Positions 45,601 to 47,910 of a stretch of DNA of 64,000 bases are shown here, piece after piece; the stretch's first letter is position 1, and each line of letters starts with the position of its first letter. The stretch comes from Enchytraeus crypticus. Its lineage: Eukaryota; Annelida; Clitellata; Enchytraeida; Enchytraeidae. The translations under genes and the position numbers were made by a program. The notes under the pieces are model-generated. The model was given only the letters and a program-made list of their open reading frames with translations, did not search any database and was not told where the DNA came from. The DNA is taken from positions 410,001-474,000 of the forward strand of contig CAJHZI010000183.1 of assembly GCA_905160935.1 (NCBI GenBank), written 5' to 3'.

Positions 45601-47910
45601 CAGAAATAGACTTGATTATATAATGTAATTTTTACAAATACGTCTCAACTTGGGTGTCTTGCTTAAAAGATCATAAAAGGGAAGCCAATCATAGTCAATT
45701 GTCAGTTGCATTAGGGTTTAAGGGTTGGTAGTAAACCGTATATGATAGACTTCATAACCGATGGTAATTGAACATGTTATGGCACCTGTTTTATCTTAAA
45801 GACCTATTGTTACATGTATATCGTCAATACAAGCATCGTCAATTGTTAGTCGCTATAGATTTAAACGTTCAGTAATTGTATATGATAGGTTTCTGCTCAC
45901 TGATACCTTTCATTTTTTATTACATGTTTTATCTTTAAACATTATTGTTATTTCGTCAGTACAAGCATCGTCAATTGCCAGTTGCCCAGGGATTTAAGCA
46001 TGTTGGATATTATACATTAATAGACTTTCTAATCACTGATACTTTCACATTTTACAGTATAGCACATGTTTTACCTTTAAACATTATTCTTATATCGTTA
46101 ATACAACAACAACAACAACAACAATAATAATAATAATAATAATAAGCTTCCGAGCTTCTCTAATCCGCGGCTTTTAGACTACGACGAGGCTCTTAGGCAA
46201 TGCTTGTGCGCCGTTATCAACGCAGATTTGTCTGTTTTGCAGTGGCAGCAAGCCAGTCTACCGGTGAGCCTGGGTGGTCTTGGAATTCGTCTTGTTTCCC
46301 ATATCGCTCCTTCAGCCTTCTTGGCATCAGCGATGGGAACGAGGCAGTTGCAAGACGCCATCCTTCATAAGTGCTCCTTTCTGCCGATAGTTCCATTGAC
46401 GTTGCGTTGTCAGTTTGGTCCAAAAGCCTCACCTCCAGTGCTCCACCTTCTACCTAAGTCAGTAGCCAGAAATCATGGGACCGTCCTATAGTGGATCGGA
46501 TTTATAACAGTCTGTTAGAATCCCAGTCCAAGTGCAGTAGACAGAGCACGACTCCTAGCTGTATCAACCAAAGAAGCAGCGACTGGCTTCACGCTCTCCC
46601 TGTTGCTTCTTGTGGGTTATTTTTAGACAATGAGGCGATTCGAGTAGCTGTTAGTTTCCGTTTAGGGGCGAAAACTTGCGAGCCTCACATGTGCCCCTGC
46701 GGTCATGAAGTCGACGCTTTAGGTCTCCACGGCCTCTCCTGCAAACGAAGCTCAGGTAGAATGTCTCGCCATCACCATTTAAATGACATAATATGGCGAG
46801 CACTTTCGAGAGCAGGCATCCCTTCCTCTAAGGAACCAAGTGGGTTGTCCAGATCAGACGGCAAGCGTCCGGACGGCATGACTTTAGTGCCCTGGTGCAA
46901 CGGTAAATGTGCCGTTGGGGACGTCACGGTCATTGACACTATGGCAAACTCCTACCTGAATACGACTTCAGTCACAGCCGGTGGTGCTGCTGTTCATGCC
47001 GCCTCTAGGAAGTTGGATAAATACCGTGATCTGTCCTTAGGATATGAAGTTGTTCCGGTGGCTATTGAAACCATGGGCCCGATGAATCCCGAAGGAGTTG
47101 ACTTTATTAATGGCATAGGCAGACTTATTGCAGAGCAAACCAGCGATAAGCGAGCGACATCTTTTCTTTGGCAAAGGCTTTCCAGACTTTGAAAAGATTT
47201 AATGCAGTCGCTTCAGCCATTCTTTTAAGCGATTGACGGACCTCGAGTAGCCGGGCGGCCGATTCAGCACGTATGCGTGAATCGTTTTTATCAAACCCAG
47301 GTCTTTACAAAGGGGTAAAAAAAAAAAAAAAAAAAAAAAAAAAAAAAAAAAAAAAAAAAAATAATAATAATAATAATAATAATAATAATAATAATAATAA
47401 GAAGAAGAAGAAGAAGAAGAAGAAGAAGTAGAAGAAGAGGTTTTTAGTCACGTGGCTCTCCTGTCTGTCTCAGATCTATTGCCACTTGGTTCAGTTTCAG
47501 ATGATGTATGCATCCGACAAACTTCTCGCTGGTTCCTAGGCCTCGATGTTGTCCTGGTTCACCACAAATAGAGCGGATAATCGTGTCCGTACCGGAATAG
47601 ACTCCCTCGTCTACGTCAGGCTTAGCCGTTATCCCATTCACCATCAGTGGTACCACGTTCATAGCTTTCGAATCTATGATGGTATGGAGCCAGTGGCGAT
47701 GTCGGTAAGATGCTCGACAACTATCAGAATGTGTGGGGTACAAATCCTTGGCTCGCCCGTCACTAACATCGTTTTCGAGTGAGGAAACTGACGTTAACAC
47801 TGGCTTCAACAGATTTATGCCGTAGACCGTTGCAGAGCTTATTTTTGGAAGCCGGAGTATTGGTGGCTCTGATGTCACCTTGCCATTGTCCACACTAAAC
47901 ACCAGGATTC
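42166..47910 (-). CDS. Type I membrane protein: laminin G, sushi, TM, PDZ-ligand tail (3' part)
   Basis: Exons 47910-47452, 44881-44687, 43490-43316 and 42679-42166 join with matching phases (1, 1, 2) and give about 446 residues to the stop; the 5' end is not seen. In order: a laminin G-like domain (GILVFSVDNG, HTIIDSKAMNVVPLMVNG, SEKFVGCIHHLKLN), one sushi/CCP domain with four Cys and a Trp (CGWLNVPDS, TITGCFSGF, FTCQQSG, VWSSTPSVYC), a membrane helix (CVVCTLGIILLIIFLC), an Arg/Lys stop-transfer run and a Pro/Ser-rich cytoplasmic tail ending NDSEV. S-E-V at the C-terminus fits a class I PDZ ligand. The layout suggests a cell-surface adhesion or scaffold protein; no named family recognised. 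A SINE sits inside the laminin G exon and an R4-like retrotransposon in the next intron. The joining of the laminin G exon to the sushi exon rests on phase and proximity. Confidence 0.75.
42735..43040. repeat. 15-bp tandem repeat (AATGATGACAATCCT)n
   Basis: About 18 units of 12-18 bp between the tail and TM exons. The Ile-Met frames on both strands are artefacts. Confidence 0.9.
43316..43490 (-). CDS. Transmembrane exon
   Basis: Acceptor GTCGTTACAG|ACCTGAACGG; donor CAGTTTT|GTAACC is weak but is the one that keeps frame with the next exon. Encodes a Pro-rich linker, a 22-residue helix and RCKKRRARREGRRAKRAAK. Confidence 0.8.
43481..43625. repeat. 72-bp tandem duplication across a splice acceptor
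   Basis: CCGTTCAGGTCTGTAACGAC at 43481 and CCGTTCAAGTCTGTAACGAC at 43554 begin two copies that share ATCTGATAACGAATTCTTGC. The first copy contains the TM exon's acceptor; the second recreates an acceptor-like TTACAG|ACTTGAACGG about 73 bp upstream. Confidence 0.85.
44398..44657 (-). mobile_element. Repeat C copy 4, full-length SINE with 16-bp TSD
   Basis: The body is 44414-44641. ATCTGGATTAACGCAT occurs at 44398-44413 and again at 44642-44657: a perfect 16-bp target-site duplication. In minus orientation it begins CCCCGTGTTGTGTCCGGGTC, passes TAGAAGGCGACTAAAGC and ends in (GAT)n. This proves the family moves by target-primed reverse transcription. The 112-codon plus frame across it is an artefact. 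Confidence 0.92.
44687..44881 (-). CDS. Sushi domain exon
   Basis: Acceptor CTATTTCTAG|AATTGTC, consensus donor CTACT|GTAAGT. One sushi domain in one exon, as is common for CCP modules. The overlapping frame at 44683-45012 is a shadow. Confidence 0.88.
44935..45172. repeat. 10-bp tandem repeat (CTACTGACAG)n
   Basis: About 23 units of GACAGCTACT with variants, upstream of the sushi exon within the intron. Confidence 0.92.
45186..45310 (+). repeat. Repeat D, copy 5
   Basis: CAACAATTAGAGTGCTACTG, ACATCGAGCACTATTGAGAC, AAGCCGGCGAGCAAAACGG and GGTGCAAATTCCAAAATCC. Confidence 0.8.
46103..46144. repeat. (CAA)n(TAA)n microsatellite, left flank of R4-like element
   Basis: CAA then TAA triplets run directly into the first coding base of the element at 46145. 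TAA triplets resume after its poly(A) at 47362. Confidence 0.95.
46145..47361 (+). mobile_element. R4/Dong-like non-LTR retrotransposon, 5'-truncated
   Basis: The C-terminal part of one large ORF runs to a TGA at 47190-47192, with about 124 bp of 3' UTR and a 45-base poly(A). It reads KLPSFSNPRLLDYDEALRQC, SLPVSLGGLGIRLVSHIAPS (downstream of RT), WDRPIVDRIY, a CCHC-type finger (PHMCPCGHEVDALGLHGLSC), GRMSRHHHLNDIIWRAL, and KRPDGMTLVPWCNGK..VGDVTVIDT. The last part fits the PD-(D/E)xK restriction-like endonuclease of R2/R4/NeSL-type elements, here with G where W is usual. One base is lost or gained near 46463. Both flanks are TAA repeats; Dong of Bombyx (R4 clade) targets TAA repeats. It lies in an intron of the minus-strand laminin G/sushi gene. 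Confidence 0.82.
46491..47192 (+). pseudogene. Retrotransposon ORF C-terminus: CCHC finger and RLE-like domain
   Basis: The 233-residue frame from WDRPIVDR to RLSRL. Cys-Pro-Cys..His-x3-Cys forms the CCHC finger at residues 67-83, and RPDG..W near residue 125 plus DVTVID near 142 are the nuclease-like motifs. It is frameshifted from the upstream 46145-46490 frame, so no intact protein is made. Confidence 0.8.
47317..47438. repeat. poly(A), (TAA)n, (GAA)n
   Basis: 45 A, then TAA triplets to 47400, then GAA triplets to 47438. The poly(A) is the element's tail; the TAA is the target repeat or tail extension. Confidence 0.95.
47452..47910 (-). CDS. Laminin G exon with an embedded SINE
   Basis: Acceptor TTACAAAG|GAATCC, donor AGCCAC|GTGACT (weak). 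The first 36 residues and the last 70 read as laminin G; the central 40 residues are encoded by the antisense of SINE-A copy 6 and keep the frame open. Native HTIIDSK resumes directly after the SINE. Confidence 0.6.
47686..47808 (+). mobile_element. SINE-A copy 6, inside laminin G exon
   Basis: GGAGCCAGTGGCGATGTCGG, then GCTCGACAAC (diverged), GGGGTACAAATCCTTGGCTC (degenerate B-box) and GAGTGAGGAAACTGACGTTA. No clear target-site duplication. It is antisense to the host gene. Confidence 0.8.

Follow-up and report, generated by a model that had tools for sequence, protein, structure and literature searches.

Long interspersed nuclear elements (LINEs) that carry a restriction-like endonuclease (RLE) and insert in TAA repeats are already a known kind. 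The presence of Dong in microsatellites is mentioned in PMC2887409 and PMC3636483, and for R4 a target site duplication of 13 bp is given in PMC6895275. Both R4 and Dong have been reported to carry a hepatitis delta virus (HDV)-like ribozyme at the 5' end. According to the description in PMC5678591, RLE LINEs have an LP between the linker helices, a CCHC knuckle, PD, D/E and an unusual catalytic KX2KY, and the endonuclease of R2Bm opens with RH; the same source reports an Arg between the first two knuckle Cys for R2, Dong, NeSL and Utopia. Among the molluscs surveyed in PMC10294476, the R4-Dong, R2-Hero and CRE types occur almost only in cephalopods. Here we analyzed 64,000 nucleotides of Enchytraeus crypticus (contig CAJHZI010000183.1, positions 410,001 to 474,000; this whole stretch is called the window), in which an element without long terminal repeats (a non-LTR retrotransposon) lies in a compound microsatellite at positions 46103-47438. 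We consider it very probable that this element is a broken copy, shortened at its 5' end and disrupted in frame, of an RLE (R2-like) LINE that is young, high in copy number and poly(A)-tailed and prefers pre-existing (TAA)n microsatellites.

TAA arrays at the insertion sites

Across 46103-47438, a CAA array, a TAA array, a 1171-nt body with broken frames, a run of 45 A, (TAA)13 and a GAA array follow one another, and all features of the element are given on the plus strand. The CAA array (46103-46124) belongs to the compound target microsatellite on the left side of the insertion, and it is joined by the TAA array of the 5' junction (46123-46145, with seven full units at 46125-46145). The body of the truncated element (46146-47316) ends in the poly(A) tail of 45 A (47317-47361), which is the longest A or T run in the 64 kb, the next longest being 9. 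The right part of the target, a TAA array (47360-47400, with 13 full units from 47362), and the GAA array (47399-47438), the outer right part of the compound microsatellite, complete the order. The homology of this copy to other copies begins at 46149 rather than 46146. Perfect TAA runs of at least six units were found at four places in the window, two of which are the flanks of the element. For random placement, the product of the chances that both ends touch TAA arrays is about 3e-7 by the window count and about 1e-8 with the two flanking arrays excluded from the array count, both being rough figures since the two ends of one insertion are not independent. The association of the element with TAA in the window is not chance. 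The layout bears out the sequence-only reading of this DNA, which had described a 5'-truncated non-LTR element between TAA arrays.

That reading had also cautioned that one copy cannot prove specificity, a doubt that is answered by dozens of further copies in TAA. We searched the host genome (524,188,772 bases, 524 Mb, in 802 contigs) with the protein of the window copy and scored the best 150 of 7005 first-look candidates. The results showed that all 150 scored rows matched the window protein at E<=3.4e-144, the other copies being 88-93% identical, and that stop-free frames of 1008-1092 amino acids (aa) were present in 20 of these best 150 of the 7005. Exact matches to the 17-nt 3' end of the family numbered 2234 genome-wide (1134 forward and 1100 reverse), compared with 0 for the backwards control; the 3' end of the window copy differs from the 17-nt pattern, and this copy is not counted in the 2234. 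For tabulation, we took 50 copies: the window copy, ranks 2-30 of the protein search, and another 20 rows, in rank order, whose open frames are short (269-420 aa). The identity of 48 of them (all but the window copy and the reference L044 itself) to L044 was 99.08-100%, with a median of 99.79%. The 5' ends were in hand for 44 of the 50, the fetched stretch ending before the 5' end in the remaining 6; four copies are complete on this side, another begins at position 64, and 39 of the 44 are truncated at scattered points between positions 899 and 2499. Judged from these counts and identities, the family is young and high-copy in this genome.

To tabulate the flanks, we recorded perfect TAA runs of at least 9 nt within 40 nt of the 5' junction or within 130 nt after the 3' end. 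With the window copy included, such runs were found on the 5' side in 38 of 44 copies (at least 12 nt in 36 of 44) and on the 3' side in 48 of 50 (at least 12 nt in 47 of 50); without it, the counts were 37 of 43 and 47 of 49. In the control, random stretches of the window with its insertion region left out, runs of at least 9 nt and at least 12 nt occurred in 0.65% and 0.26% of 40-nt stretches, and in 2.4% and 0.75% of 130-nt stretches, respectively. The tail of the copies is poly(A) or A-rich, followed by TAA. The same analysis was applied to a second set, 20 consecutive rows of the 3'-end list beginning at C101 (the contig of the window), none of which is among the 50, and TAA runs were found at 18 of 20 3' flanks and 9 of 11 5' flanks. 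These copies are 84-100% identical to L044, so older copies are included. Most copies are therefore flanked by TAA in the tabulation that the sequence-only reading had proposed as its check, and insertion in TAA repeats as a target, which it had named for Dong, holds in both samples. The preference for TAA is clear in both, and the target preference is confirmed.

A different origin of the repeats is that the element makes them itself, by its transcript tail or by slippage on poly(A), instead of choosing them as a target. On the 3' side the poly(A) passes straight into TAA, as such an origin would have it, and an RTE element with repeats in its 3' untranslated region (UTR) is described in PMC2887409 as spreading microsatellites. 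Against it stand the TAA runs at the 5' junction of the same 38 of 44 copies, and in the window the array continues as CAA on the left and as GAA on the right. Moreover, among 20 copies displayed, four (L032, L035, L042 and L048) carry a matching unusual, non-standard repeat unit on both sides, and in L032 and L048 it is one imperfect unit, identical on either side of the element. Since these odd units match on both sides, the array predates the insertion, and an element-made repeat is very unlikely indeed. The suggestion that the right-hand TAA might be part of the element's tail is made very unlikely by the same matching units; in the window, the poly(A) tail sets this array off from the element body.

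Several points weigh against this target preference. The 50 copies were picked by similarity rank and 20 of them also by a short open frame, not randomly, and the latter choice biases the sample toward truncated copies; the control was drawn from the 64-kb window, not from the genome. Six of the 44 5' flanks have no TAA run of at least 9 nt. The 5' flank of L035 is a TAACAATTA repeat; L042 lies in an ATCA-type repeat that is present on both sides; in L046 the array is about 65 nt upstream of the 5' junction; L047 and L069 open with inverted element sequence (183 nt and 136 nt, respectively), as in twin priming; and L055 begins with other element sequence. On the 3' side, L042 and L069 are the two of 50 without a TAA run, and the exceptions in the second set are L082 and L090 (5') and L082 and L084 (3'). 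No empty site or empty allele was found. L042 shows that another AT-rich repeat can serve as a site, and this copy also agrees with a second alternative, in which insertion is untargeted and copies survive mainly in TAA-rich, gene-poor DNA. Survival and targeting are indistinguishable for old copies. The tabulated copies, however, are nearly identical (the median identity given above), which leaves little time for purging, and such a TAA run is present in just 0.65% of random 40-nt stretches of the window; we regard survival alone as a very improbable account of the pattern.

The reading that we prefer, insertion of an RLE LINE into an existing TAA array, may be laid out as follows. Read directly from the DNA are the 5' truncation, the poly(A) tail, the pre-existing TAA array, the endonuclease signature and the stop-free frames in other copies. 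The endonuclease of the element would nick the TAA array, and reverse transcription would start on the poly(A) tail, primed by the free 3' end (target-primed reverse transcription). Synthesis would usually stop early, leaving the 5' truncation, and the 5' end would then be joined to the array, often via 1-3 nt of microhomology. Of 18 junctions with a clean TAA run at their end, 16 have microhomology of at least 1 nt (1-3 bases readable as element or array), which exceeds the expectation under assumed match chances of 1/3 (1.7e-6) or 1/2 (6.6e-4). The junction overlap fits microhomology at the 5' join. From the insertion pattern we infer that the protein of the element itself recognizes TAA.

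The surroundings of the arrays have features of their own. Behind the TAA array, a common repeat (GGTTTAACGTCCGTTTCCTCATCC and variants) follows in the 3' flanks of L023, L033, L038, L049, L054, L060 and L071, at least 7 of the 50, and TAA arrays beside another repeat family seem to act as landing sites. Pieces of the element or of related elements were found at most 350 nt behind the 3' end in 8 of 50 copies (L025, L027, L037, L043, L050, L051, L055 and L062), and with element pieces so close behind 3' ends, insertions pile up in the same arrays. A related family adjoins the array at L027:1136-1270 (minus strand as stored) and in the 3' flank of L028, its open reading frame (ORF) ending ITGDKREKSFLWQRLSIALQRFNAVCFSG...

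Coding content of the element

The coding part of the window copy, 46145-47192, had been treated as one translation; it consists of two overlapping ORFs, 46102-46491 and 46458-47192. In frame 1, the 5'-truncated coding part (46146-46490) is translated as the end of the reverse transcriptase (RT) and the thumb (WQQASLPVSLGGLGIR). The second frame (46458-47192) holds the linker, the zinc knuckle and the RLE and ends in a premature stop. Within it, WLHALP (46584-46601) is read as the LP between two linker helices upstream of the knuckle (compare INALP of R2), and a CCHC-like zinc knuckle, CPCGHEVDALGLHGLSC, lies at 46692-46742 with the pattern CX1CX9HX3C. The catalytic signature of the RLE, as described in PMC5678591, spans 46866-47024, with RPD (46866), D (46920) and KLDKY as KX2KY (47010-47024), spaced RPD-X15-D-X29-KLDKY, and the RH ahead of the endonuclease is present within SRHHHLND. 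The out-of-frame end of the ORF and a short 3' UTR ending in TCTTTACAAAGGGGT occupy 47193-47316. The knuckle and the RPD nuclease-like C-terminus noticed in the sequence-only reading were thus found again, and they are absent from shuffles: the combined pattern (knuckle, then [RK]PD-D/E-KX2KY) occurred once in the open frames of the window and in 0 of 60 shuffled windows, and the RLE pattern alone in 0 of 20,000 shuffles of the protein. Of the RLE features described in PMC5678591, the element carries all but two: its knuckle is spaced differently, and no GXW was seen close to the end. These two typical features, a knuckle spacing of CX2-3CX7-8HX4C and a GXW near the endonuclease end, were judged non-defining, and the knuckle of the element has the same total length, 17.

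Alignment with one full-length copy over 1176 positions shows 19 substitutions and 11 single-base indels in the window copy, whose frame is broken several times. By its reading frames, the window copy is dead and frame-broken. The indels at 46370-47310 (11, all single base) are many against the 19 substitutions, 8 of them within about the final 130 nt of the element, and may reflect decay or assembly error. Searches with the fragments of the window alone gave little: Pfam returned nothing for the element, the PDB sequence search returned three antibody chains only, and AlphaFold2 gave a low-confidence model of a 207-aa fragment with a mean pLDDT (predicted local distance difference test) of 33.4. 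The RNA fold of the 3' UTR was no better than that of shuffles (z -0.51), and Rfam at gathering scores had no match in the window.

The full-length copy is 3356 bp, from the start ATTCGCTAGAGGCGC to the last base before the poly(A). This start is common to L033, L044, L047 and L051, three of which have a TAA-rich array before ATTCGCTAGAGGCGC; in L047 an inverted element piece is found there instead. The layout comprises a 5' UTR of about 312 nt, one frame of 991 aa from the first ATG (about 313-3288), a 3' UTR of about 68 nt and the poly(A). Along the 991-aa frame, we found in order an N-terminal zinc-finger-like pattern, the reverse transcriptase, the linker, the zinc knuckle and a PD-(D/E)XK-like endonuclease. 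For the RT region, Pfam gave RVT_1 at 1.5e-15, and the polymerase box in it reads VGYLDDITLGG (YLDD). The N-terminus holds CSVCLAQRQLHSGDGKVHLHGPLDNRC with the Cys/His pattern CSVC...H.H...C, zinc-finger-like by eye, where Pfam has no match. No other Pfam family was found in the 991-aa frame at E<=1, and no apurinic/apyrimidinic endonuclease (APE) domain. A single ORF without an APE domain is the arrangement of RLE-type (R2-group) elements; an APE domain N-terminal to the RT, as in APE-type LINEs, was not found by Pfam in this frame. The PDB sequence search gave five matches at E<=1 (the best 2.4e-5), all confined to the RT region. Three of them are named R2 by their depositors (9nl2, 9nl3 and 9dou), and the other two (8gh6 and 8ibw) have the name 'reverse transcriptase-like protein', and we take them to be the Bombyx R2 protein. 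On domain order and these matches, the element is classed as an RLE-type (R2-group) non-LTR retrotransposon whose RT is nearest to R2 proteins. A second refuting condition set in the sequence-only reading, an RT that falls in an APE-type clade, is answered indirectly by the lack of a Pfam APE match and by the R2-type PDB matches.

Outside its own genome, no relative was found with the 244-aa protein in viral contigs and genome contigs, nor in phages. A phage-like contig that encodes SDGKRPDGMT (L001:5440-5481) gave a 14-residue match, which was judged to be chance and not a relative. ORFs resembling that of the element seem widespread in invertebrate gene predictions, and databases may already contain this lineage.

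Other features of the window

Directly left of the insertion, diverged tandem repeats (45686-46106, offset about 144 nt, 70% identity) reach the left microsatellite. Directly to its right, on the minus strand, a 159-aa open frame (47444-47923) has a weak resemblance to Laminin G (Pfam E 0.14, below the cut-off). Copies of a repeat of about 115 nt, with 82-89% identity and in both orientations, are dispersed at 47685-47806 and at about 1120, 4400, 13600 and 29900. At 11052-11504, on the minus strand, a 150-aa open frame has a Mab-21 nucleotidyltransferase domain (Pfam E 3.8e-13).

Clade placement and comparison with known systems

The sequence-only reading had labeled the element R4/Dong. Under that label, the RT box, the knuckle and the N-terminus would differ by within-clade variation. 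The target speaks for it, since (TAA)n is given in PMC7998251 as the target of Dong in most insects, molluscs and cnidarians, and so does the single frame with RT and RLE. A Dong 5' junction primer printed in PMC3774820 also has seven TAA followed by GCTCCC. We compared this with the 5' junction of the window copy, where TAA is followed by GCT, and consider the likeness to be chance: the truncation lies inside the coding region, and homology begins after the GCT. On the other side, the element has a GYLDD box, compared with the AF/YADD that PMC3774820 gives for all non-LTR elements, a difference that is unusual for any clade and not for Dong alone. Its knuckle begins CPCG and thus has no Arg between the first two Cys, where PMC5678591 reports one, and its spacing is CX1CX9HX3C instead of the CX2-3CX7-8HX4C given there. 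The N-terminal Cys/His pattern, read by eye, contrasts with the description of R4/Dong in PMC7998251 as having no N-terminal zinc finger. Finally, Rfam found no HDV-like ribozyme at E<=5 around the 5' UTR (L044:1900-2450), which is weak evidence, as Rfam models may miss diverged ones; a script search for the P1 stem of a ribozyme gave four 7-bp matches with G-U pairs allowed, which we consider uninformative. Two reported features thus differ from R4/Dong, and a third, the N-terminal zinc finger, probably does. The label was not upheld on the YLDD box, the knuckle without Arg and the N-terminal pattern, and we hold true membership of R4/Dong to be doubtful.

Tentatively, and at less than even probability, the element may instead represent a lineage of RLE LINEs, young and abundant here, that lies outside R4/Dong, has a YLDD box as well as a zinc finger at its N-terminus, and took up the Dong target (TAA)n independently. 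If this is true, TAA targeting has more than one origin among RLE LINEs. A young, high-copy family with intact frames offers very many junctions from which to read the target preference, and it would allow testing how an RLE protein recognizes a microsatellite, whether the same target has two origins, and in what way microsatellites next to other repeats become landing pads. Proteins of the R2 group are of interest as DNA-insertion tools, for which a member with a target other than ribosomal DNA (rDNA) would be a useful comparison.

Among known systems, R2 of the 28S rDNA includes the nearest RTs in the PDB and shares with the element the RPD...D...KX2KY endonuclease, the preceding RH, the LP linker and the zinc knuckle, as well as 5' truncations, which are reported for R2 too (PMC7650587). 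The element differs from R2 in having a microsatellite instead of 28S rDNA as its target, a long A-rich tail, the YLDD box and another knuckle spacing, and no GXW was seen by eye after the KX2KY part. HERO and NeSL/Togen resemble it as RLE LINEs in microsatellites, a kind of target described for some HERO families and, as (TG)n, for Togen (PMC4640811). The target of Togen is thus another repeat, and the likeness is drawn from the description in PMC4640811. Dong of Bombyx mori, of the R4 clade, together with the Dong-like elements of insects, molluscs, cnidarians and an ostracod, is likewise an RLE-type LINE in (TAA)n as described in PMC7998251, PMC2887409 and PMC3774820. Compared with Dong, the element has a YLDD box, a knuckle without the reported Arg, a zinc-finger-like N-terminus (by eye) and no detected HDV-like ribozyme. 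The TAA target is common to both, and a shared target is not clade membership.

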